A stretch of DNA of 64,000 bases, from the NCBI GenBank assembly GCA_009379815.1, contig WHSY01000005.1, positions 1-64,000 on the forward strand, read 5' to 3'. The position numbers and the translations under genes were made by a program. Origin of the DNA: Pseudonocardiaceae bacterium (GTDB lineage Bacteria; Actinomycetota; Actinomycetes; Mycobacteriales; Pseudonocardiaceae). The notes under the pieces are model-generated. The model did not search any database. It was not told the DNA's origin and worked only from the letters and a program-made list of their open reading frames with translations. This document shows positions 42,026-54,016 of the stretch, piece after piece; position 1 is the first letter of the stretch; each line of letters starts with the position of its first letter.

Positions 42026-42703
42026 ATGACCGAAGCTCGAGCCGCGCGAGCCAGGAGCGGGGCGGACGAACACCTGCGTCCGCCGATGAGCAAGGCAGCG
42101 TACGTACTCGAGCGGCTGCGCGACGAGATCGCGGCCGGTGTCGTCGTCGCCGGATCCTCGCTGCGACAGGCCGAGATCGCCGAGAGGTACGGCGTGAGCG
42201 CCACGCCCGTGCGCGAGGCGCTGCGACTCCTCGAGGCGGAAGGCACCATCACCTATGCGCCGCACCGGGGCGCGACGGTGCGTGAGTTGTCGCCGACCCG
42301 CACGGAGGACGTCTACCTGCTGCGCGCCGAGATCGAGGGCCTCGGGACCGCCATCGCCGCCGAACGCATGGCAGACGGCGACATGGCCGGCATCAACGCC
42401 GTGCAAGCCGAGCTCGAAGCCGCGATGCGGCGGGGTGACGGTGAGGAGCTCGCGGTACTGAACCGGCGACTGCACTTCACCATCTACCAGGCCGGCTCGG
42501 AGACCATCGCGGCGCACGCCGCCAACCTGTGGGCGCTGTTCCCGCCACACGTGACCATCTGGCGTGATCCCAGCGCCGCCCGCGCGCTCATGAACGACCA
42601 CGAGGGGATACTCGAGGCGCTCGCGGCCCGCGATCCCCGGTTGGCCCGGGAGCGCGCCGCCGCGCACATCTTCCACGCCGCGGAGCTGCGCAAGCAGCTC
42701 TGA
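42026..42703 (+). CDS. GntR family regulator, FCD-domain (FadR subfamily)
   Basis: 225 residues. The winged HTH is at about 20-90 (VLERLRDEIAAGVVVAGSSLRQAEIAERYGVSATPVREALRLLEAEGTI). The FCD all-helical ligand domain follows, with metal/ligand residues suggested by VYLLRAEIEG, LHFTIYQAG and MNDHEGILEALAARD. FCD ligands are usually small organic acids. Five sites with a shared TATAGWAW core occur at promoters of the 42-62 kb block, including its own. It is therefore probably the master regulator of that block. Confidence 0.92.
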   Translation: MTEARAARARSGADEHLRPPMSKAAYVLERLRDEIAAGVVVAGSSLRQAEIAERYGVSATPVREALRLLEAEGTITYAPHRGATVRELSPTRTEDVYLLRAEIEGLGTAIAAERMADGDMAGINAVQAELEAAMRRGDGEELAVLNRRLHFTIYQAGSETIAAHAANLWALFPPHVTIWRDPSAARALMNDHEGILEALAARDPRLARERAAAHIFHAAELRKQL

Positions 42704-42712
42704 GACCTGGCC

Positions 42713-43897
42713 TCACGAGGTCGCGGAGGCGCGGTGGGCGGCCGCTGACGCCGTCGCGAGCACGGCGCAGGCCAGCCACAGCGCCCCGGCGCCGGTGGAC
42801 CCGGCCACCAGCGCCGCCGCGGCCGGCAGCGCCACCTGCCCTATCCGGTTGGCGACCATGCGCAGCGCCAGGCCCCTGCTGCGGGCCTCGACGGGGACGG
42901 CCCGGACCATCAGCGTCATCGTCAGTGGCTGGCCCACTCCCAGCAAGAAGCCTCCCACGACCAGCGCGACACCCATGCCGACCAGGCCGAGCCCGGGCAC
43001 CGGAACGAGGGCGAAGGCCGCCGCGGAGCCGGCCGCGCTCGCGACGATGAGCACGTCGTGGCGCCAGTGGATCAGCAGCCGGTCGAGCAGCAGCCGGGAG
43101 CAGATCGTCGCGGCCGCCCGGAGTCCGAGCAGCACCCCGACGACAGCGGGAGCGATGCCGCGGCTGTCGGCGATGAGCGGGAGGTAGGCGGTGAGGATGT
43201 CCGCAGCGGCCAGCAGTGCGAGGCTGGCGAACAGCTTGGTCGGCACCCCGGAGCGTTGCAGCAGGGCGAGCGTCGACGAGGGCGCCTCCGCCGCCCGCTC
43301 GGGCGCTCGCCGGCGGACGGGCGTGCGGACTGCGACGACGGCGACGACGGGCAGCGCGAGCAGCGCGGTGCCGGCGCAGACCCAGAAGGCGTGCCTGCTG
43401 GCGGTGGCGAGCGCCTCACCGGTGGCCGAACCGAGCAGGGCGCCGGTCAGCAGCGGCCCGAGCAACTGCCCTACCGAGACCGCGGCGGTCAGCCAGCCGA
43501 ACCCGCGGTCGAGCAGCGGCCCCGACGACCACCGCGCGACCGTGCCCTGGGCGGCGACCAGGAACACCAGCTGGCCGAGTCCGACGACCGCGCTGTTGAG
43601 TGCGAGCGCCGGCACCGAGCCGCTCACCGACATGAGCAGCGAGCCGGCCGCGAGCAGGCACGTCCCGGCGGCCAGCAGCAGACCGAGGCGGCTCAGCCGG
43701 TCGGACAGCCGCCCGAGCGGGATCGCGACGAGCAGCGGCAGCACGGCGAACGCCGCGGCCACCAGGCCGACCGCGCGGGCATCTCCCCCGAGCGCGATCA
43801 CCCGGTAGCTCACCAAGGGCCGGGCGAGGTGGACCGTGGTCTGGGTGAGCACGGCACAGACCAGCAGCGGCAGGAACCAGTTCCGCTGCCGCCTCAC
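42713..43897 (-). CDS. MFS transporter
   Basis: A 394-residue, about 12-helix major facilitator. The loop 2-3 motif reads GRLSDRLSRLGLLLAAG. The first helix starts at NWFLPLLVCAVLTQTTVH. The GTG start overlaps the stop of the selenoprotein gene (GTGA), so the two are translationally coupled. Co-expression suggests it imports the substrate or exports a product of the selenoprotein pathway. It converges on the GntR gene with 9 bp between stops. Confidence 0.88.
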   Translation of the reverse strand: MRRQRNWFLPLLVCAVLTQTTVHLARPLVSYRVIALGGDARAVGLVAAAFAVLPLLVAIPLGRLSDRLSRLGLLLAAGTCLLAAGSLLMSVSGSVPALALNSAVVGLGQLVFLVAAQGTVARWSSGPLLDRGFGWLTAAVSVGQLLGPLLTGALLGSATGEALATASRHAFWVCAGTALLALPVVAVVAVRTPVRRRAPERAAEAPSSTLALLQRSGVPTKLFASLALLAAADILTAYLPLIADSRGIAPAVVGVLLGLRAAATICSRLLLDRLLIHWRHDVLIVASAAGSAAAFALVPVPGLGLVGMGVALVVGGFLLGVGQPLTMTLMVRAVPVEARSRGLALRMVANRIGQVALPAAAALVAGSTGAGALWLACAVLATASAAAHRASATS

Positions 43898-45498
43898 TGC
43901 ACAGCATCGACGTCGGCGGTCACCGCGACTGTGGGGCCGAACGTCGGCACGACGACCGAGTGCTTGCCGGGGCCGCCGGCGACGAGCAGCAGCACGTCCT
44001 CCGGGTGGTCGACCATCGGCACGAGGCCGTCCGCGGGGACGTCACCGAAGACGTGCGGCGCCGTCGCGCGGAAGCGCTCGAGGTTGCCCGGCGAGATGCC
44101 GCGAACATCGACGCGGGCCCGGGCCGCCAGATCCTGCTGCACCGTGCGCCGGTCGTGGCCGTCGCGGGCGACCACCTCGGCGTGCTCGGGCGAGAGCACC
44201 AGGAGCATCTGCCCGCGCAGGTAGACGTTGTTGCAGCCGAGGGTGGCCATCGTGCCCGCGACGTTGCGCAGGATGCCGGCCGCGCTGGTGCTGCCATGGT
44301 CGTTGACGTTGTGCGGGCCCTCGCCGCCGACGACCGTGACCGCGCCGCGGCTGCCGCGGCTGCCGCCGCCGCGGTCGTCGTGGAACGTCGGCCACGGCGA
44401 CGCCGCCGCGTTCTCGGCGATGCAGTAGGCGTACTTCGTCGGGCCACCGTGCGTCGCCCGATCGGTCTCGCCCGGCCGCGCCTCGCCGATGTTCTGCAGC
44501 ACCAGCCGCAGCGCCCGCCCGACGCCCGCGTTGGCCCGGTTGCCCTGGCCGAAGGTGTTGGCCGCCGGGTTGAACCCGAGCTCGTCGACCACCGGTCCGT
44601 GCACGATCACGAGGGGGGTGACGGGGTGCGTGGTCGTGGTCAGGGCCTGCAGGTTGAAGCGGGGCTCCAGGGCGGCGCGCACCGCGGCGAGAACCACCGG
44701 AAGCAGTGCCGGTGGGCAGCCCGCCATGACCGCGTTGGCGGCCACGGCCCGGACCGTCGCACCACGGTTGGCCGGGGTGACGACACCCACCAGCTCGTCG
44801 CCGTCACGCCCGCTCGCCGCCACGGCCCGGTCGACGAGCTCGGCCGTCGGGGGTACCAGCGGCAAGCCGTCGCTGAACCGGTGCTCCTCGGCGAAGGAGA
44901 GGAAGCCGAGGACGTCGCCCGGAGCGTCATGCACTCGCAGGTGGTGCTCCCCGGCCGCTGCGGCAGCGGGCGCGGTCAGCAGCGCCTCGGCCACCCGGTC
45001 GACGGCGGCCGCGAGCATGTCGTCGAGCCGCTCCGGCTCCACCCCGCCGATCGGGTGGGGGATCGTGACGACCGCCAGCGACTCCAGCCCCTCCTGACGG
45101 GCCACCGCCCGTGCCAGCGGCAGGAACGGCTCGGTGCACAGCAGGACCGTCGGGATGCCGCGACGCTCCAGCTCGACGGAGTCGTGGACACTCCACGACG
45201 TGCACGAGCCTCAATCGCCGACACCGACGATGGCGGCGTCGAAGCCCCGGAACCCGACGAGCACCTCGTCCGGGCAGGGCTGCGAGGCGACGGCCTTGCC
45301 GGCGGCCATCGGCTCCTGAGTGTCGAACCGGCGGCGAAGGTACCGGGCGAGCCGGCCCACCACGTGGTCGGCGTTGGGCTTGCCGTTGTCGAGCGCGCCG
45401 ATGTGCGCGCCGGCCAGCACGGAAGGCCTGGCTGCGGTGGCGACGTGTGCCGACGGCGGCTCGCTCCCGCTCGGATCGACGACCTGAACGCTGCTCAC
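43894..45498 (-). CDS. UGSC-family selenoprotein (in-frame TGA = Sec96)
   Basis: One 535-codon frame is interrupted only by a TGA at 45211-45213. Translating it as selenocysteine gives FDAAIVGVGD-U96-GSC99-TSWSVHDSVELERRGIPTV, the U-G-S-C motif that names this family. The frame is continuous on both sides: the N-part (AHIGALDNGKPNADHV) and the long C-part (DGLPLVPPTAELVDRAV, TFGQGNRANAGVGRALRL) fit one protein. A hairpin resembling a bacterial SECIS starts right after the TGA (45171-45209). The U-x-x-C pair implies redox or reductive chemistry, distantly like GrdB. The function is not established. The GTG start at 45498 follows a G-rich ribosome site. Standard callers would split it in two. 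Confidence 0.85.
45171..45209 (-). promoter_or_regulatory. Putative bacterial SECIS hairpin
   Basis: In the mRNA the TGA is followed by GCTCG, a 5-nt internal loop, GTCGTGGA, loop GTG, TCCACGAC, a 5-nt internal loop and CGAGC. The inner stem is a perfect 8 bp (45181-45199) and the outer stem 5 bp. The apical loop begins 19 nt after the TGA, inside the usual bacterial SECIS window of about 16-37 nt. SelB recognition is inferred. Confidence 0.7.
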
Positions 45499-45833: not shown

Positions 45834-46847
45834 TCACCGCTGCCGGGCCGCCTCGGCGACCCGCTCCCAGCTGTCGAGGAAGCCGTAGCGGTCGACCACC
45901 TGCGGCCGCATGATGACGTTGCCGACGCCGAGCCCTTGCAGCTGTCGCAGCTTCGCGACGCAGTCGGCCTCGGTCCCGACGACGGCCATCCGCTCCGCGA
46001 GGTAGTCGGTCAGCCCCAGCTCCTCGACGAGCCGGCCGTTGGGATTGTCGCGGCCGGGCTCGTTGTGGACGGTCAGGTCGTAACGGCGCTCGAGCTCGCG
46101 GATCGGCTCGGTGAACTCCGCGGGGACGGCCTTGCCGTCCAGCGAGATGCGGAAGGCATGCGCGGACGCGGCGGCCAGGCTCGGCGCAACCAGGCGCAGC
46201 GCGTCCTCGCGGCGGTCGGCCACGGCGGCCCGCGCCATGTACCAGACGTCGACCTCCTCGACCGAGCGGCCGGCCTGCTCGGCACCCTCGCGCAGGTACT
46301 GCTGCACCAGTGGCACGGTTTCCGGCAGGAAGCCCAAGCCCACCACGACCCCGTCGGCGACCTTGCCAGCGAGCCGCAGCGCCCGGGGACCGTCGGCCGC
46401 GAGGTAGATGGGCACGGGACGCTCGACCCACTTCAGTCGGACGTCGTCGCCCTGGTACCGGGCACGGCCGGACTCGAACAGGTCGCGCAGCACCAGGACG
46501 TACTCCTCGAGCTGTGCCAGCTTCGCGGGGCGCAGCCCGAGGTTGAAGACCCCGGTGTCACCCGTGGCCAGGCAGATGAAGGCCCGGCCGCCGGACAGCT
46601 CGTCCGCGCTGGCGATGGCGGCCGCCGACACGGCCGGGTGCCGGGTGAGCGGGTTGGAGACGACCGGTCCCGCCTCCACCCTGCTCGTGTGGCCGAACAA
46701 ATGCGTCAGCGTGACGTAGCACTCGCGGTACTGCGCCGCCTGCGTGTCGGGGACACCGATGCGGTCCAGCCCGGCGGCCTCGGTGCGCGCGACGAGGTCG
46801 GCGTAGTTCCCGAGGTCGTCGGGCACCCATGTGATCCCGAGCTTCAT
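45834..46847 (-). CDS. LLM-class flavin-dependent oxidoreductase
   Basis: 337 residues resembling F420-dependent methylene-H4MPT reductase-type LLM enzymes: MKLGITWVPDDLGNYADLVARTEAAGLDRIGVPD, GGRAFICLATGDTGVFNLG, then VPIYLAADGPRALRLAGKVADGVVVG. GAGGAG precedes the ATG at 46847. It is on the same strand as the CitE-like gene, 59 bp downstream. It probably catalyses a hydride-transfer or monooxygenation step on the block's substrate; F420 rather than FMN use is likely but not proven. Confidence 0.85.
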   Translation of the reverse strand: MKLGITWVPDDLGNYADLVARTEAAGLDRIGVPDTQAAQYRECYVTLTHLFGHTSRVEAGPVVSNPLTRHPAVSAAAIASADELSGGRAFICLATGDTGVFNLGLRPAKLAQLEEYVLVLRDLFESGRARYQGDDVRLKWVERPVPIYLAADGPRALRLAGKVADGVVVGLGFLPETVPLVQQYLREGAEQAGRSVEEVDVWYMARAAVADRREDALRLVAPSLAAASAHAFRISLDGKAVPAEFTEPIRELERRYDLTVHNEPGRDNPNGRLVEELGLTDYLAERMAVVGTEADCVAKLRQLQGLGVGNVIMRPQVVDRYGFLDSWERVAEAARQR

Positions 46848-46906
46848 GCTGCTCCTCGTGGTCGTCGGGTCGTTGCGGGGGCGCGTGGCGCCTCCGGCCG
46901 GGCCGG

Positions 46907-47758
46907 TCATCGGCGGCGGCCGTAGGACAGCGTCCGGCGGGCCGCGAGGACGACGGCGTTGTCGACGAAGCGCCCGTCGGGCAGCTGCAGACCTGCGGAG
47001 CCGGCATCGACCGCGTCCGTGAGCCGCTGCGCCAGCGCCTCGGCCTCGGCGAGTTCGGCAGCCGTCGGGGTGAACACCTCGTTGATGACGGGCACCTGGC
47101 GGGGATGCAGGGCGGAGCGCCCGAAGAAGCCGAGCCGCTTGCCCCGTTCGCAGCTCGCCCGCAGCCCGTCGAGGTCTGCCAGCCCGGACCACACGCTCTG
47201 CACCGGCGGGGGCAGCCCCGCAGCCCGGGATGCGAGGACCACACGGGAGCGGGCGTAGAGCAGGCCCTCGTCGGTGGCGCCGATATCAGCCTGCAGGTCC
47301 TGCTCACCGAGCGCGACCCCGGCGACGCGCTCGTGCGCCGAGGCGATCTGCGTGACCTGCTCGACCGCGACCGCGCTCTCGAGCAGGACCTGGATCCGGA
47401 CCGGCGACCCCATCTCGTCCAGCCAGCCCGCGACCGTGTGAACGTCGCGCGCGGACTCGGTCTTCGGGAGCCGGATGCCCTCGATGTCCGTACCGGCCAC
47501 GGCATCGAGGTCGGCGCGGGCCAGCCCGGTCCCGAGCGGGTTGACGCGGACGAACGTCGGCTTCGGCGGGGGTGAGGCGAGCACCCGCGCCACCGTGCTG
47601 CGGGCCCGCTCCTTCATGCTCGGCGCCACCGCGTCCTCCAGCTCCAGCACCACCGCGTCCGCGTCGGACGCGTATGCCTTCTCGACGTGGTCCTCGCGGT
47701 GGCCGACCACGTACAGGTAGCTGCGGTGCAGCCCGACCTCATCCACTGGACACCTCAT
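46907..47758 (-). CDS. HpcH/HpaI aldolase/citrate lyase (CitE-like) family protein
   Basis: About 283 residues of the CitE-like TIM barrel: VVLELEDAVAPSMKERAR (metal-binding Glu/Asp), FVRVNPLGTGLARADLDAV, IQVLLESAVAVEQ, VALGEQDLQADIGA and GFFGRSALHPRQVPVIN. Members cleave or hydrolyse malyl-CoA, citramalyl-CoA and similar beta-hydroxyacyl-CoAs. The start lies inside a triplicated 16-bp repeat, giving alternative starts at ATG 47758 and GTG 47746, each with GAGGTG upstream. Activity towards a 3-hydroxyacyl-CoA made by the synthetase/hydratase genes upstream fits the context. Confidence 0.85.
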   Translation of the reverse strand: MRCPVDEVGLHRSYLYVVGHREDHVEKAYASDADAVVLELEDAVAPSMKERARSTVARVLASPPPKPTFVRVNPLGTGLARADLDAVAGTDIEGIRLPKTESARDVHTVAGWLDEMGSPVRIQVLLESAVAVEQVTQIASAHERVAGVALGEQDLQADIGATDEGLLYARSRVVLASRAAGLPPPVQSVWSGLADLDGLRASCERGKRLGFFGRSALHPRQVPVINEVFTPTAAELAEAEALAQRLTDAVDAGSAGLQLPDGRFVDNAVVLAARRTLSYGRRR

Positions 47759-47788
47759 TCACCGGGCACCTCATTCACCGGGCACCTC
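47741..47788. repeat. Triplicated 16-bp unit across a stop/start junction
   Basis: Units at 47773-47788 and 47757-47772 are identical (minus strand GAGGTGCCCGGTGAAT). The unit at 47741-47756 differs at three positions. Each supplies a GAGGTG ribosome site and an ATG, in different frames since 16 is not a multiple of 3. Confidence 0.8.
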
Positions 47789-47869
47789 CGGGTCGGCCAG
47801 CGCGAGCACGGCGTCGAGCGCGATCACCCGGCCGGTCGACCGCTCGACGGCGAGGGGGTTGAGCTCGGC

Positions 47870-49894
47870 CTACTGCGGGGCTTCCGCGGACACCACGAAC
47901 CACCGCGACAGCCGGGCGATGCAGGCCCCGAGCCCGGTGCGCGCGCTGACCGGCACCCCGCACGCCGTCAGCCAGGCCGCCAACCGCTCGTCGGCCAGCA
48001 GCTCGCCGGCGCCGCGCTCGTCGAGCGGGCAGGTCGCCCAGACGACGTGGGGCTCGAGCTCGACGTCGCCGCCGCCGCGCCCGACGCCGATCACCGCCCC
48101 GAAGTGGGGCTCCACGGTGGCGCCGACGTAGAGCTGGGCCGCCACGTCGTGCTGCTGTTCCAGCAGGAACTGCCAGCCGGCCGGCCCGAGGGCGGCTCGC
48201 GCCCGCCGCGCGAGCTGCTCGGCCGCGTCCCGCAGCGCGGTCTCGTCGCCGATCCCGAGCACGAGCAGGCCGGCGGTCGCCTTGTGGAGCACCTCCGCGG
48301 CCACGACCTTGAGCACCCACGGTGCCGGGACGCGGCCCGCTGCCGCCACCAGTTCCACGACGCCGTCGGCGACCTCACCGGCGGGCACGGCCACACCCAT
48401 CTCGCGCAGCCGGTGCTTGCCTGCCGCCTCGGACACGACGGTGGCGGCGCGGCGGCGCACCGGCGTACCGGGCAGCTCGGGTGGCGCCGCTGCCGCCGCG
48501 TCCCGGCAGCGGCCCAGCACCGTCGCCGCGATGCCCGTGCCGGAAAACCACGGCACGTCGCCGGCATCGAGTGCCTCGAGGTCACCGCCGGTCCGCACGC
48601 CGCCGGTCCAGACGACGCAGACGGGAGGCGCGCAGCGGCCGGCCTCCCGCACCCCGGCCGCGACCCGCGCCGGCAACTCGGTGTCGCCGGCCGTGACCAC
48701 CGCCACGACGTCGGGCTGGTCGCGCAGCAGTGCCCGCACCACGCCGGAGACCACCGGCCGGCGCAGCGCCATGGTGACGTCCACGGGGTTCGACCGCCCG
48801 CCGACCGCGCCGAGCAGCTCGTCGAGCTCCCGCTGCGCCCGTGCCGACAGCTTCGGCAGCACGAATCCGGCGACGCCGAGCGCGTCGGCGGCGAGCGCCC
48901 CGAGCCCGCCGGAGTGCGACAACACGACGGCCCGCCGCCCGCCGGGGTGGGGGGCGGAGGCCAGGAACCGCACGCACTGCACCAGCTCGTCGACATCGGA
49001 CACCCGGACCACCCCGTGCCGGCGCAGCACGCCGTCGACGACCGCGTCGTCCGCGGCGAGCGCGGCGGTGTGGGTCGCGGTCGCCGACCGCCCGGCCGCC
49101 GACCGCCCGATCTTCAGCACGACCACCGACCGCCCCCGTGCCCGTGCGGTCCGAGCGGCCCGCAGCAGCGCAGGCCCGTCGTGGAAGTCCTCGCACACCA
49201 TCGCGACGACCTCGGTGTCACCGGCCAGCAACTGCTCGGCGAGCTGCTCGGACGCCGCTACCTCCTCGTTGCCGGTCGACAGGATCGCCGAGAAGGAGAA
49301 CCCGTGGTCCTGCGCGCGTTCGTGCACCGCGCCGAAGGCGGTGCCGCCGCTCTGCGACAGCAGCACCGCCGGCAGCGGCGCCCGGGCCTGCCGGGGGCGC
49401 AGGCCGGAGAACGTCGTCGCCCAGACGCCCGCCGCGACGCTCGAGTAGCCGTTGCCGTTCGGTCCGATGACGAGCACGCCCGCCCGGGCCGCCGCCTCCC
49501 GCAGCAGCTCCCGTCGACGCAGCCCCGCCGCGCCTGCCTCACCGAAGCCGGCGGTGATGACGACGGCGGCCGCCACGCCGGCGGCTCCGCAGTCCGCCAC
49601 CACTGCCGGGACGTCGTCGGCGGGGACGACCACGACGGCCACGTCCACCGGTTCGGGCACGTCGCGCAGCGAGCGGAACGCCCGCCGGCCGAAGACGGTC
49701 TCCCGCGACCTGCTCACCGGGTGGATCGCGCCCGGGTAGCCACCGTCGACCAGGTTGGTCAGCAGCCGCGCCGCGTAGCCGGGCCGCTCCGTCGCCCCGA
49801 CCACGGCGATCGACCGGGGAGCCAGCAGCCGGTCGAGCCGGGTCGGCGTTCCGCTGCGACCTGCTTGCAGGGTCGAAGCATCGATACCGCTCAC
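47870..49894 (-). CDS. ADP-forming acyl-CoA synthetase (alpha-beta order), C-terminus cut by amber codon
   Basis: 674 residues. The CoA-binding domain is first (LLAPRSIAVVGATERPGYAARLLTNLVDGGYPG), then ligase domains with IGPNGNGYSS and SHSGGLGALAADALG. The ATP-grasp part comes last (WVLKVVAAEVLHKATAGLLVLGI). The frame ends at TAG (47870-47872) after SAEAPQ. Beyond it the same frame continues 32 codons with AELNPLAVERSTGRVIALDA, the normal ATP-grasp ending, to a TGA at 47771. The TAG therefore removes about 32 native residues. The GTG at 49894 overlaps the hydratase stop (GTGA) and has GGAGGG upstream. Confidence 0.82.
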   Translation of the reverse strand: MSGIDASTLQAGRSGTPTRLDRLLAPRSIAVVGATERPGYAARLLTNLVDGGYPGAIHPVSRSRETVFGRRAFRSLRDVPEPVDVAVVVVPADDVPAVVADCGAAGVAAAVVITAGFGEAGAAGLRRRELLREAAARAGVLVIGPNGNGYSSVAAGVWATTFSGLRPRQARAPLPAVLLSQSGGTAFGAVHERAQDHGFSFSAILSTGNEEVAASEQLAEQLLAGDTEVVAMVCEDFHDGPALLRAARTARARGRSVVVLKIGRSAAGRSATATHTAALAADDAVVDGVLRRHGVVRVSDVDELVQCVRFLASAPHPGGRRAVVLSHSGGLGALAADALGVAGFVLPKLSARAQRELDELLGAVGGRSNPVDVTMALRRPVVSGVVRALLRDQPDVVAVVTAGDTELPARVAAGVREAGRCAPPVCVVWTGGVRTGGDLEALDAGDVPWFSGTGIAATVLGRCRDAAAAAPPELPGTPVRRRAATVVSEAAGKHRLREMGVAVPAGEVADGVVELVAAAGRVPAPWVLKVVAAEVLHKATAGLLVLGIGDETALRDAAEQLARRARAALGPAGWQFLLEQQHDVAAQLYVGATVEPHFGAVIGVGRGGGDVELEPHVVWATCPLDERGAGELLADERLAAWLTACGVPVSARTGLGACIARLSRWFVVSAEAPQ

Positions 49895-50670
49895 CGGGCC
49901 CTCCACTGTGGCTCGCGCTTCTCGGCGAACGCGCGGACGCCCTCGACGCGGTCCTCGCTGCCGTAGGGGTCGGGCGCCAGCTCGAGCCGCAGCGCCGCGG
50001 ACAGCGGTAGCTGCAGGCTGCTCTGGATCGAGGCCTTGTAGCGGCGCAGGGTCAGCGGCGCGCGCGACAGCACGGTGCGCACGTAGTCCTCGGCCGCTGC
50101 GGCCAGCTGCTCGCCCGGGACGACGGCGTTGACCAGGCCCCAGCGCGCGGCCTCGTCCGCGGTCAGCGAACGGCCCGTGTAGAGCAGGTCGTAGGCGATC
50201 CCGACCGGCAACAGCCGCGGCAGGATGGCCGCGCCGAAGTTGGCGCCCATGCCGCGCAGCGCCTCCGGCAGCCCGAGCGTGGCGTGGGCGGCGGCGATGC
50301 GCACGTCACAGGCCATGGCCAGCTCGAGACCGCCGCCGACGGCCGCCCCGTTCAGCGCCGCCACCACCGGCTTGCGGCACTCGTAGACGACCTCGAACGG
50401 GTTGCGCAGCAGGCCCCGCATCGGAGCGGGCGGCGGCGCATCGCGGCTGTCGCGGCCGGCCAGCTCCTTGAGGTCGCGTCCGGCACAGAACGCGTCGCTG
50501 CCGGCGCCCGTGACGAGCACGGCCCAGACGTCGTCGTCGTGGTCGAAGCGGTGGAAGGTCTCGACCAGACCCTCCATCACCGCGTGGCTGAGCGCGTTGC
50601 GGCGTGGCTGCCGGTCGAGCGTCACGTAGCCCACCCGATCGAAGACCTCCACCACCAGTCCCTCGGCCAT
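49891..50670 (-). CDS. Enoyl-CoA hydratase/isomerase family protein
   Basis: 259 residues. GAGSDAFCAGRDLKELAG and ALNGAAVGGGLELAMACDVRIAAAHATLGLPEALRGMGANFGAAILPRL give a complete crotonase active site, with a Glu in LPEALRG. GAGGAG precedes the ATG. It is coupled to the synthetase (GTGA overlap), so product of one is probably substrate of the other: acid activation, then hydration. A crotonyl-type substrate is an inference. Confidence 0.88.
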   Translation of the reverse strand: MAEGLVVEVFDRVGYVTLDRQPRRNALSHAVMEGLVETFHRFDHDDDVWAVLVTGAGSDAFCAGRDLKELAGRDSRDAPPPAPMRGLLRNPFEVVYECRKPVVAALNGAAVGGGLELAMACDVRIAAAHATLGLPEALRGMGANFGAAILPRLLPVGIAYDLLYTGRSLTADEAARWGLVNAVVPGEQLAAAAEDYVRTVLSRAPLTLRRYKASIQSSLQLPLSAALRLELAPDPYGSEDRVEGVRAFAEKREPQWRAR

Positions 50671-50696
50671 GCCGCTCCTCCTCCCCGCCGTGACGG

Positions 50697-51578
50697 TCAG
50701 TCCAGCGCCAGCGCCGCGGCCGGGTTGTGCACCGTCATGGCCTCGACGTCGTCCTGGGAGAACCCGAGCGAGCGCATCGAGTCGACGTACCGGCTCATCC
50801 CGAGGACGGGCGAGACGTTGTGCGCCTGGCCGAAGTCGGTCGCCATCACGGTCGAGTCCACGCCGACGGTGCGGACCGCCTCGGCGATGTCGCCGATCGG
50901 CACGTCGTCGCTGGTCGGCAGGGTGACGACCAGCACCCGCTCGAACCACACCCCGTCGAGCTCGGCGAGCTGCAACTGGTCGTCGACGCCCAGGCCGACG
51001 CAGTGCAGCTCGGGGTGGGTGATGAGCACGTGGGGCACACCGCGCCTGCGTGCCTCGGGGACGACCTGCATGATCTCCGCTGGCGAGATGTGCCCCGTCG
51101 CCAGCGTGGCCCCGGCCGTGGCGATCAGGTCCAGCACCGCGCACACGTCCGCCGTCGGCCGGCCGTGCTCGTCGAGCACGGAGATGCCGCTGCCCTCGAT
51201 GGTGCCCAGCCGCTTGAGATTGGCGCTCGCGACGCCCACCTCGGCGGCGTAGCGGATCTGGTTGGCGGAGGTGAAGGTGGGCAGCCAGATCACCCTCGCG
51301 CCCAGCTGCAGGGCGGTCTGCACCGCGTAGGGGTTGATGCCGCCGGTCGCGTGCAGGTTGAGCACGACACCACCGAGGATCTGTGCCTGTGCCGCGTGCT
51401 GCTGCGCCATCGTCGCCCTGGCTGCGGTGACGGTGTGGTGGCTCTTGAGGACGACGGCCCGGTAACCGGCCTCGTCCGCCGCGCGGGCGAACTCGGAGTC
51501 GGTCATGAGGCGGGGGACGACGTCCGGCGCGGTGTGGACGTGGGTGTCGACGATGTCGCGGGGCCACCTGCGGTTCAT
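50697..51578 (-). CDS. Metal-dependent hydrolase, DUF6282-like amidohydrolase fold
   Basis: 293 residues. IVDTHVHTAPDVVPR has the HxH metal motif near the N-terminus. VVLKSHHTVTAARATM, LNLHATGGINPYAV and TGHISPAEIMQVV give further His ligands. The end is typical of amidohydrolase-superfamily proteins (MATDFGQ, VHNPAAALAL). The pattern fits the DUF6282 group, whose reaction is unknown to me. GAGGAGGA precedes the ATG. It may open a lactone, lactam or amide in the pathway. Confidence 0.78.
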   Translation of the reverse strand: MNRRWPRDIVDTHVHTAPDVVPRLMTDSEFARAADEAGYRAVVLKSHHTVTAARATMAQQHAAQAQILGGVVLNLHATGGINPYAVQTALQLGARVIWLPTFTSANQIRYAAEVGVASANLKRLGTIEGSGISVLDEHGRPTADVCAVLDLIATAGATLATGHISPAEIMQVVPEARRRGVPHVLITHPELHCVGLGVDDQLQLAELDGVWFERVLVVTLPTSDDVPIGDIAEAVRTVGVDSTVMATDFGQAHNVSPVLGMSRYVDSMRSLGFSQDDVEAMTVHNPAAALALD

Positions 51579-51615
51579 CGCTGTCCTCCTCGGCCGACGG
51601 GGTCGTGGTGGCTGG

Positions 51616-52629
51616 TCACAGCACGCGGTTCTCGAGTGACTCGCCTGCCCACATCCGGGCGATGTTGGCGAGGACGGCACGTGCCTTGACGATCTGGGTC
51701 TGCTTCGTCCCGGCCCCGGTGTGCGGCGTGAGCACGACGTTGGGCAGCGTGAGCAGGGGGGAGCCGCCCGGGGGCGGCTCGGTCGCGAGGACGTCGAGAC
51801 CGGCAGCCGCCGGCCGGGAGCAGCGCAGTGCCTCGACGAGGTCGTCCTCGATCACCAGCGCGCCTCGGGCGGTGTTGACCAGGACCGCGTCGGCCTTCAT
51901 CAGTCCCAGCAGCCTGCCGTCGACCATGCCGCGGGTCTCCGGCAGCAGCGGGCAGTGCAGCGTCACGACGTCGGACCGGCCGAACAGCTCCTCGAGCGTC
52001 GAGCACACCTGCACGTGCGGGCCCGCCCACTCACCCGGCAGCGGCGCCCCGCCGCGCCGGTGGACGAGCAGCTCGCTGCCGAAGGCCAGCAGGCGCCGGG
52101 CCACGGCGCGCCCGATGCGGCCGAAGCCGACGATGCCGACCAGCGCGCCGTGCAGCCCGAGCGATCGGTTGCGGTAGTCCCACTTCGGCCAGCTCCCACC
52201 GACGACCCCCTCGTGCAGCCGCAGCAGGTGCCGGCCGGCCGCGAGCATGAGCATCAGGGTGTGCTCGGCCACCGCCGCCGCGGTGCCGTCCGGGCAGATC
52301 GCCACCGCGACGCCGTGGTCGCGCAGCGCGGGCAGGTCCAGCGCGTCCACCCCGACGCCCTGGCGCTGCACGAGTGCGAGGTGCGGTGCGGCCTCCACAT
52401 GCCTGCGGCTGATCGGTGTGTCGGTGTGGACGACGACGTCCGCGTCGGCCAGCAGCCTCAGCTGCTCGCGCTCGTCACCGCGATCGCGCAGCGCCGCGAA
52501 CCGCCAACCCGCTGGAAGGTGGCTGCGGTAGACGTCCGCGACGGGCCCGTCCTGGCTGAAGTACACGACGCGCGGCCCGGGCCCGGTGGCTGCACCCGGA
52601 CCCCGCACCGGTGCGGTCGTCTCGGCCAT
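51616..52629 (-). CDS. D-isomer-specific 2-hydroxyacid dehydrogenase
   Basis: 337 residues. The NAD-binding motif is VGIVGFGRIGRAVARRLL. The catalytic set is Arg in VNTARGALV, Glu in LATEPPPGGSP and His in VLTPHTGAG. The N-terminal substrate domain has VQRQGVGVDALDLPALRDHGVAVA. It interconverts a 2-keto acid and a D-2-hydroxy acid, or acts on a related hydroxyacid. It lies 7 bp downstream of the MmgE/PrpD gene, so the two probably act in sequence. Confidence 0.9.
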   Translation of the reverse strand: MAETTAPVRGPGAATGPGPRVVYFSQDGPVADVYRSHLPAGWRFAALRDRGDEREQLRLLADADVVVHTDTPISRRHVEAAPHLALVQRQGVGVDALDLPALRDHGVAVAICPDGTAAAVAEHTLMLMLAAGRHLLRLHEGVVGGSWPKWDYRNRSLGLHGALVGIVGFGRIGRAVARRLLAFGSELLVHRRGGAPLPGEWAGPHVQVCSTLEELFGRSDVVTLHCPLLPETRGMVDGRLLGLMKADAVLVNTARGALVIEDDLVEALRCSRPAAAGLDVLATEPPPGGSPLLTLPNVVLTPHTGAGTKQTQIVKARAVLANIARMWAGESLENRVL

Positions 52630-52636
52630 CGCGCCC

Positions 52637-54016
52637 TCAGTCCGAGGTGCGCAGCTCGGCGAACAGCTGCTCCGGCGCGTCGAAGGACCAGATTTCGGAG
52701 GTGATGCGCTTGCACCGGTCGGGGCCCACGACCGGTCCGGCGAGCCGGTGCAGCTTGGCCTCGAGGTCGACGTCTGCCACCGGGTTGCCGGGCTCGCCGT
52801 AGGGCTGGTCGACCCGCAGCTGCCGCTGCTCGCCGTCGCCGCGCAGCACCACCCGGGCCGGTCGCATCGCCGGGAAGTCCCTGCTGCAGTCCGGCGCCTC
52901 CCGGACCTCCACCAGGTCGATGAGGCGCCGCACCCGCGGGTCCCGGCGCGCGTCGGCCTCGAAGTGCTCGAGGCTCGGCACGCCGTGCAGCAGGGTGACC
53001 GCGACGGCGTACGGGATGCTCATCTGGGCATCGAGGAAGTCGCCGATCGAGGTGCCGCCGTGACGCGCCGCCGAGGTGAACGTCTCCACCGTGATCGACT
53101 CGAGCGCGTCGACGTCGATCGGTGCCCGCTCGCTCAGCGCCAGGATGGCGTCGATCGGCCCGTGCAGGTGACGGCAGCACGGGTAGGGCTTGATGTAGGT
53201 CTGGAGCGTCCTCCACTCGGTGCCGAGGCCGGCGAGCAGGTGCTGCTCGTCGAACTCGTCGCCCGCGAACGCGTGCAGGTAGCCGTGCGGCCCCTCGAGC
53301 ACCGTCGCCGGCCCGGTGAGGCCGCGGGCCGCCAGCTCGGCGCTGACGAGCCCGTCACGACCGGCCTTGCCCGCGTGCAGCCGCTTGACCTCGGCGCCGT
53401 GGCCGAGGAACTCGAACAGGCCGCCGGCGTGCGAGCCGGCCAGGCCCAGCGCGCTGGCGGCGAGGCCGGCGGGGTGCTCGGTGCGGCCCTCGAGCAGTTT
53501 CGCGACACCGGCCGCCGCGCCGAACACCCCCACGACCGGGGTGTTGTGGAAACCACGGTGCCACGTGGCCGGGTGGCCGGCACCGGCCAGCCGGCAGGAC
53601 AGCTCGTACCCGACCACGGTGGCGAGCAGGATGTCGTGCGCGCCCGACCCGGTCGCCTCCGCGATCGCCAGCACCGCGGACAGGGTGGGCCCGCCGGGGT
53701 GGTAGCCACCGCGGGTGTAGCCGTCGTCGACCTCGAGGCCGTGTGCCGCGGTGCCGTTGGCCAGCGCCGCGTTGGCGGCCGACAAGCGCAGCGGCGTGCC
53801 CACGACCGTGGCCGGGCCCGGTCCCTCGACCTCGGCGAGGTAGTCCTGCACGATCCTGGCCGGCCCCGATGTCGAGCCGACGAGGGTCGCCGCCGCGTAG
53901 TCGAGGACGGCCCGCTTGGCCTGGTGGACGACGCCCGCGGGGAGGTCCTCGTAGCGCAGCGACGTGGCCCACTCCGCGAGGGTCGTGGTCAGCGGTGCCC
54001 GGGTCGACGTGCTCAT
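52637..54016 (-). CDS. MmgE/PrpD family protein
   Basis: 459 residues of the 2-methylcitrate dehydratase/cis-aconitate decarboxylase fold. Features are VLDYAAATLVGSTSGPAR, ANGTAAHGLEVDDGYTRGGYHPGGPTLSAVLA and KPYPCCRHLHGPIDAI. The HGxExDDxxxxxxxHPG pattern is the family signature. It probably dehydrates a hydroxy-carboxylate or isomerises a related acid. No methylcitrate synthase or lyase is present, so propionate metabolism is unlikely. It lies between the second synthetase and the D-hydroxyacid dehydrogenase. Confidence 0.9.
   Translation of the reverse strand: MSTSTRAPLTTTLAEWATSLRYEDLPAGVVHQAKRAVLDYAAATLVGSTSGPARIVQDYLAEVEGPGPATVVGTPLRLSAANAALANGTAAHGLEVDDGYTRGGYHPGGPTLSAVLAIAEATGSGAHDILLATVVGYELSCRLAGAGHPATWHRGFHNTPVVGVFGAAAGVAKLLEGRTEHPAGLAASALGLAGSHAGGLFEFLGHGAEVKRLHAGKAGRDGLVSAELAARGLTGPATVLEGPHGYLHAFAGDEFDEQHLLAGLGTEWRTLQTYIKPYPCCRHLHGPIDAILALSERAPIDVDALESITVETFTSAARHGGTSIGDFLDAQMSIPYAVAVTLLHGVPSLEHFEADARRDPRVRRLIDLVEVREAPDCSRDFPAMRPARVVLRGDGEQRQLRVDQPYGEPGNPVADVDLEAKLHRLAGPVVGPDRCKRITSEIWSFDAPEQLFAELRTSD

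Follow-up and report, generated by a model that had tools for sequence, protein, structure and literature searches.

A very probable UGSC-family selenoprotein gene fused to a conserved partner domain in a Pseudonocardiaceae bacterium

The window analysed here comprises the first 64,000 nucleotides of contig WHSY01000005.1 from a Pseudonocardiaceae bacterium (assembly GCA_009379815.1) and carries on its minus strand (43894..45498) a 534-residue gene with a GTG start and an in-frame TGA at codon 96. The gene almost certainly encodes a selenoprotein, with the TGA read as selenocysteine (Sec). Its N-terminal domain belongs to the UGSC family, while its C-terminal 340 residues form a second, separate family fused to UGSC, referred to here as P, which was absent from the preliminary description of this DNA. 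Judging from sequence comparisons, we think it probable (roughly 0.65) that the protein is a two-domain, thiol-recycled and substrate-specific selenoenzyme, in which the UGSC domain is fused to a partner that in its relatives is usually encoded next door.

The selenocysteine codon and its hairpin

Read from the GTG at 45498 to the terminal TGA at 43896-43894, the frame is interrupted solely by the TGA at 45213-45211, with 95 codons before and 438 after it, and the local protein sequence at residue 96 is FDAAIVGVGD-U-GSCTSWSV. The translation agrees with the earlier claim that the TGA at 45211..45213 sits in a U-G-S-C motif within an otherwise open frame. The PF24696 (UGSC) profile scores 155.7 bits (cut-off 25) over residues 5-174, straight through the TGA, and the threshold of the model NF041046, 'UGSC family (seleno)protein', is narrowly exceeded (126.3 versus 125 bits). 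A mechanical listing of open reading frames (ORFs) cuts the gene at the TGA and returns a separate downstream ORF of 403 residues (43894-45105), the very split that had been predicted for standard gene calling. Rfam at gathering thresholds gave no match in the window, and searches of PDB sequences with the whole protein and with profiles of both domains produced matches at chance level only.

The decoding machinery proposed as a check was found in full: in the host genome (5.4 Mb in 733 contigs, 97% complete) selA, selB, selD and a tRNA-Sec gene (anticodon TCA, 76.7 bits), the selC of the earlier proposal, all lie on one contig, C21. Two further UGSC genes, at C421 and C222, carry one TGA each. 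The host selD (L016, G000:C21:10304-11227), which adjoins the tRNA-Sec gene, itself has one in-frame TGA (...GAGUACK...), and SelD is probably a selenoprotein in its own right. A draw of 396 genomes from the phylum contained 29 with a UGSC match, 27 of them above the cut-off; two or more matches occurred in 12 of the 29, the second being a short fragment in G123 and G156. The selA gene was present in 22 of the 23 genomes with a TGA-bearing UGSC gene versus 214 of the 373 others (one-sided Fisher test, 8e-5). G036 is the sole genome with a TGA-bearing copy that lacks selA, and a tRNA-Sec is present there. Neither selA nor tRNA-Sec rose above the cut-off in G150 and G102, which have no TGA-bearing copy, and G136, with a degenerate UGSC match, has no selA and a tRNA-Sec match of 49.9 bits, just above the cut-off of 47. 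The co-occurrence is not a strict rule, because G294, which carries a cysteine (Cys) form, has both selA and tRNA-Sec.

Relatives were collected from two sides. Around the matches in the phylum 46 stretches were fetched, leaving out the row of a 57-residue fragment at G123:C127; one stretch (L083) is the contig with selA, selB, selC and selD, and two (L078, L079) showed no UGSC by profile. This gave 44 actinobacterial loci with a UGSC match, the window included, of which 37 have one TGA, five have Cys and two (L077, L080) lack the motif. A scan of named genome contigs with a profile of P found at least 569 relatives (569 of the 588 pattern matches listed), and the best 80 of these 569 were analysed as named loci. 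UGSC was found in 77 of the 80 and a TGA-bearing copy in 70. In the remaining three (L101, L104, L125) P lies at or near a contig end, where UGSC may have been cut off, and the DNA on the other side shows none; the UGSC copy of L136 is broken. Cys forms occur in Natrialba, Natronomonas, Sphingomonas, a metagenome-assembled genome (MAG) of the Sphingomonadales and a Binatia MAG. UGSC-P was also seen in five records titled Bordetella parapertussis MAGs (L109, L161, L166, L169, L176); this species label looks doubtful, as the isolate names suggest environmental bins.

Over both sets, with seven rows skipped, the residue aligned with Sec96 is encoded by TGA in 117 copies and is Cys in 10, the U/C alternation that had been suggested as a test. 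At least five changes between the two are implied by a quickly built tree with 116 Sec and 9 Cys rows (125 in all), which lacks support at 49 of its 122 inner branches. The Sec-or-Cys column and the Cys column at +3 are invariant in alignments of 40 and 56 rows that we chose, leaving out the motif-less L077 and L080 and partial copies. Among the copies with exactly one TGA, 117 of 118 have Cys at +3; the exception, a partial UGSC at the edge of a locus (L132:20646-20915), has Ser there (UGSS).

One locus uses a different codon. Blastococcus sp. CT_GayMR19 (L139) has TAG at the Sec position and retains an intact hairpin after it. A tRNA-Sec with anticodon CUA has been reported for the Geodermatophilaceae, together with a mention of UGSC-motif selenoproteins (PMC5330540), which would belong to the same family as the window gene. 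A tRNA search of L139, covering that locus only, found none. The TAG fits Sec recoding, in that the codon has changed in the lineage and the UGSC position has changed with it. The window gene differs from these UAG-Sec proteins in using TGA, and the TAG-bearing L139 gene differs further in being fused to a flavoprotein (see below).

The hairpin behind the TGA, of the bacterial selenocysteine insertion sequence (bSECIS) type, spans 45181..45199 on the minus strand. The perfect 8-bp inner stem described earlier is exact: positions 45199-45192 pair with 45188-45181 around a 3-nt loop (45191-45189) that starts 20 nt past the TGA. Covariation was counted over all 117 Sec copies (115 of them distinct) and compared with 500 shuffles and with six versions in which the pairing partner was slid along. 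Standard pairs fill 92.5% of the pair cells, versus 84.2% in the shuffles and at most 47.4% in the slid versions, and the covariation score of 0.203 compares with 0.090 in the shuffles, none of which reaches it, and at most 0.120 after sliding. Seven of the eight pairs show changes on both sides, a figure that does not discriminate, because one of the 500 shuffles and three of the six slid versions also reach seven. A count on 93 of the 117 copies gave 93.2% paired, seven of eight pairs and no shuffle in 500 matching on any of five measures; this subset left out 24 copies by no rule, including the divergent L075 and L076, and the full count is slightly weaker.

Codon choice adds to this. At the pair that joins two third codon positions, 82 of the 115 distinct copies have G-C and 29 have C-G: valine is encoded by GTC in 46 of 46 copies in which it faces the tryptophan codon TGG, and by GTG in 15 of 15 in which it faces the cysteine codon TGC. 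As these valine codons are synonymous, the selection acts on the RNA. Among the 117 Sec copies 84 keep all eight pairs, and among the 10 Cys copies none does. Folding energy is a weaker sign, with a mean z against synonymous re-coding of -1.22 for Sec and -0.36 for Cys copies. These comparisons indicate that the hairpin is under selection. The proposed bSECIS folding test divides: covariation and codon selection across the family speak for the element, while the energy of the window hairpin is unremarkable, 29 of 100 synonymous re-codings folding equally well or better. What supports the hairpin is the evidence from the family as a whole.

The partner domain and a possible electron supply

Domain P occupies 43897..44916 on the minus strand; no Pfam family scores above its cut-off on these 340 residues, and PDB sequences gave no match. 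The host genome has exactly three copies, one for each of its UGSC genes: fused in the window, as the next gene at C421 and as the preceding gene at C222, where P has a thioredoxin (Trx)-like N-terminal domain. At 41 of the 44 actinobacterial loci UGSC and P lie side by side on the same strand, no more than 325 nt apart, the exceptions being copies near contig ends (L070, L072) and a fragment (L080). At the named loci they share a strand with a gap of at most 672 nt in 77 of 80. The pairing is thus seen from both sides, since UGSC was the starting point for the actinobacterial loci and P for the named ones, here the best 80 of 569. UGSC and P share a single open frame, interrupted by nothing but the Sec codon, in the window gene and in a further five actinobacterial and 26 named pairs. 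In-frame pairs in the order P-then-UGSC were left out of this fusion count, because the intervening TGA may be an ordinary stop.

Several polar residues of P are nearly invariant: Asp19, Asn132 and Arg137 in 67 of 67 members, Asp155, Glu171 and Cys70 in 66 and Lys164 in 64, a pattern that looks like an active site. UGSC and P were modelled separately, and MAFFT misaligned combined rows of UGSC-only and P-only proteins. The P model is confident (predicted local distance difference test, pLDDT, 93.0; predicted template modelling score, pTM, 0.92) and had no Foldseek match at E <=1e-3. The best Foldseek rows, a two-subunit fumarase chain (E 3.8e-3, TM 0.31) and cyclic amide hydrolases, and the VIA-align matches, with Z up to 6.7, were discarded as too weak for a fold assignment. 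At nine loci (L102, L111, L113, L117, L129, L140, L160, L162, L167) P is followed by another copy of itself, often a shorter one, which may be a second subunit. Three others (L118, L179, L165) have two or three UGSC-P pairs no more than 21 kb apart, as if these served several substrates.

Some loci carry possible links to thioredoxin-type reduction. By motif search, a Trx-like CxxC domain stands N-terminal to P in 15 of 42 actinobacterial and 0 of 107 named P proteins; a Pfam scan of two loci, L064 and L089, did not name a Trx-like domain before P. A gene for a CxxC flavoprotein resembling thioredoxin reductase (TrxR) lies near UGSC at 10 of 124 loci, in nine of them upstream and on the same strand. 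In L139 (8460-9887) UGSC (residues 312-402) is the in-frame continuation of such a flavoprotein, which has the motif CAGC and matches Pyr_redox_2 over residues 6-273.

These features suggest the following scheme for the proposed two-domain selenoenzyme. SelB, guided by the hairpin, would insert selenocysteine at codon 96, a step for which the sequence support is strong. P may bind a small substrate of the organic-acid type, with which the Sec96 selenolate would react; Sec96 and Cys99 would then close to a selenide-sulphide, and a thioredoxin-type system would reduce this bond. The enzyme would provide the substrate-specific step of a catabolic pathway, here beside a transporter of the major facilitator superfamily (MFS) and genes of the acyl-CoA type, and UGSC paralogues would serve different substrates. 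A guess at the particular reaction would be reductive cleavage beside a carboxylate group, on the pattern of glycine reductase B.

Fold, relation to glycine reductase B and rival explanations

The UGSC domain (44977..45486, minus strand) is predicted to be an alternating beta-alpha sandwich. In its model (pLDDT 93.4) five strands alternate with five helices, and Sec96, with Cys99 at +3, lies between strand 88-94 and helix 97-112. Most of its structural matches are receiver, flavodoxin-like and cobalamin-domain proteins, the best being 8s7v_H from the methyl-coenzyme M reductase (MCR) activation complex (Z 11.3, root-mean-square deviation 2.6, 127 residues), and the model points to a flavodoxin/receiver-like sandwich. 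The thioredoxin fold has an order that differs from five alternating strands and helices, and the predicted structure does not look Trx-like. In 2008 a Trx-like fold had been expected for UGSC (PMC2398784). No thioredoxin was among the structural matches shown, although such lists cannot exclude a family.

The domain shows a remote resemblance to the selenoprotein B of glycine, sarcosine and betaine reductase (GrdB/F/H). The GrdB family model TIGR01917 matches the window protein weakly (E 1.9e-5, 23.8 bits versus a cut-off of 602.2) and finds 4 of 40 UGSC rows at E 0.001; PF07355 is absent among the Pfam matches of the window protein up to E 1. When a GrdB profile built from 11 of 13 full-length GrdB-type proteins of actinobacterial genomes was compared with UGSC by hhalign, 92 columns aligned, Sec on Sec (E 7.5e-6, probability 84%). 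UGSC thus shares a domain with GrdB, to which it is remotely related, but falls outside the GrdB family. About 90 residues around Sec are common to both, whereas the N-terminal region of GrdB and a GrdE-type partner are not present in the UGSC system, and the GrdB rows from actinobacteria used in the comparison carry Gly at +3 and Cys at +6 where UGSC has Cys at +3. The profile of P shows no relation to the UGSC and GrdB profiles, nor to a nine-row GrdE-type profile (PF09338; probability 0.3%, E 0.19), and PF09338 matched none of 32 P members. In the actinobacterial GrdB-type genes (L182-L193) the TGA comes directly after the stretch covered by PF07355 in 12 of 12 checked, with the same Gly at +3 and Cys at +6.

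Three other explanations have to be set against a substrate-specific, thiol-recycled enzyme. That the gene is a pseudogene or contains a sequencing error, the TGA being a real stop between separate or dead halves, would agree with the split made by gene calling and with an assembly in 733 contigs; it is highly improbable given that the TGA stands at the same codon in 117 copies from several phyla with Cys as the alternative, that TAG stands there at a locus from a UAG-Sec lineage, and that the hairpin covaries. The protein might instead be a general thiol oxidoreductase or peroxide-detoxifying selenoprotein with the Trx-like fold suggested in 2008 and with P as an accessory. The UxxC motif and the TrxR and Trx links speak for this, as does the description of most selenoprotein families in the same paper as thiol oxidoreductase homologues or Trx-fold proteins (PMC2398784). 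We nonetheless rate it unlikely: the model alternates strands and helices and matches receiver, flavodoxin-type and cobalamin-domain proteins with Z up to 11.3, and the divergent paralogues in some genomes and the catabolic surroundings suit substrate-specific enzymes better; the lack of a thioredoxin among the rows shown proves nothing by itself. A slightly better, still tentative alternative is that Sec directly attacks and reductively cleaves a C-X bond, making the protein an aerobic mechanistic relative of glycine reductase B. It draws on the profile similarity around Sec and on the proposal that GrdB-type Sec attacks C-N and C-F bonds (PMC10838667), and it is weakened by the single shared domain, by a P that is unrelated to PF09338 members, and by the distance of TIGR01917 (23.8 bits versus 602, with so few UGSC rows found). 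The electron chain of glycine reduction, in which TrxR, Trx, GrdA and GrdB follow one another (PMC3091704), and the GrdB-type attack on C-F bonds may by analogy serve as models for UGSC chemistry.

Several observations weigh against the two-domain, thiol-recycled enzyme that we prefer. The NF041046 margin is just 1.3 bits, and the stability of the window hairpin is ordinary. The Trx domain before P, missing from all named P proteins, and the TrxR-like gene, found at so small a share of the loci, may each be lineage-specific. P occurs in tandem at some loci and is not strictly one to one with UGSC, and L061 has an extra P copy 5.3 kb from UGSC without a UGSC of its own. The similarity to GrdB is confined to some 90 columns, and P bears no resemblance to either GrdB or GrdE. 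The neighbour families of UGSC vary and were counted without background control. A more far-reaching picture, which we put forward as doubtful, is that UGSC and P constitute a widespread two-component class of selenoenzymes and a distant cousin of GrdB. Its members would work in aerobic bacteria and, with Cys in place of Sec, in haloarchaea; they would cleave small organic acids reductively, be regenerated by a thioredoxin and TrxR-like chain of their own, and serve one catabolic pathway per paralogue.

Published family members and the gene neighbourhood

The UGSC family and a UGSC/Unknown_1 fusion were published in 2008 in the Global Ocean Sampling (GOS) selenoproteome paper, whose table of ocean-sampling metagenomes ranks UGSC fifth with 255 sequences, among the commonest selenoproteins (PMC2398784). 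The family is also listed in PMC9312934 and PMC13188914, the latter a 2026 review that calls the functions of a selenoprotein group including UGSC largely uncharacterised. The titles and abstract openings of the open-licence papers found on UGSC selenoproteins give no function, in line with the earlier statement that the reaction is undescribed. Like the window gene, the UGSC/Unknown_1 fusion joins UGSC to a conserved domain without assigned function; the fused domains in that paper as a rule hold conserved Cys residues (PMC2398784), and P has two. P and Unknown_1 are likely to be the same domain. With the PF24696/NF041046 family the window gene shares the profile match across the Sec codon, the U/C-G-S-C motif, the Sec/Cys interchange and the hairpin; it differs in its fusion to P, the family models covering only about the N-terminal 170 residues. 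What would be added to the known family are the UGSC-P pair, the recycling link and the relation to GrdB, all of which may be in print under other names. With UGSC usually paired with a partner from an unnamed family and linked to Trx/TrxR, its function becomes a question for the bench, where the natural Cys versions could be made by ordinary expression hosts. Gene callers that ignore UGA lose both the Sec residue and the fusion.

Recurrent neighbours at the 124 loci, counted without background control and in clusters named after one scanned representative each, are TctC receptors (32), short-chain dehydrogenases (24), enoyl-CoA hydratases (22), CoA-transferases (17), acyl-CoA dehydrogenases (17) and MmgE/PrpD proteins (10). 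TctC also came first, with 12, among 110 operon-like neighbours that we chose from 218, again without background control. No substrate was obtained from these counts.

In the window, an MFS transporter gene (42713..43897, minus strand; PF07690, 6e-35) overlaps the stop of the selenoprotein gene by 4 nt (GTGA) and is likely in the same operon; convergent with it is a GntR/FCD regulator gene (42086..42703, plus strand; PF00392, PF07729). Upstream of the selenoprotein gene, the minus strand from 45834 to 54016 presents catabolic surroundings that begin with a luciferase-like monooxygenase (45834..46910; PF00296). There follow an HpcH/HpaI aldolase/citrate lyase-like protein (46907..47746; PF03328 on ORF 46907-47758), a CoA-binding/ATP-grasp protein resembling acyl-CoA synthetases (47870..49804; PF13607 and PF13549 on ORF 47870-49906) and an enoyl-CoA hydratase/isomerase (49891..50670; PF00378 on ORF 49891-51567), the starts of these three being taken from gene calls. 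Beyond a DUF6282 protein (50697..51578; PF19799) lie a D-2-hydroxyacid dehydrogenase (51616..52629; PF02826) and an MmgE/PrpD protein (52637..54016; PF03972). DUF6282 was also seen twice among the neighbours of other UGSC-P loci.

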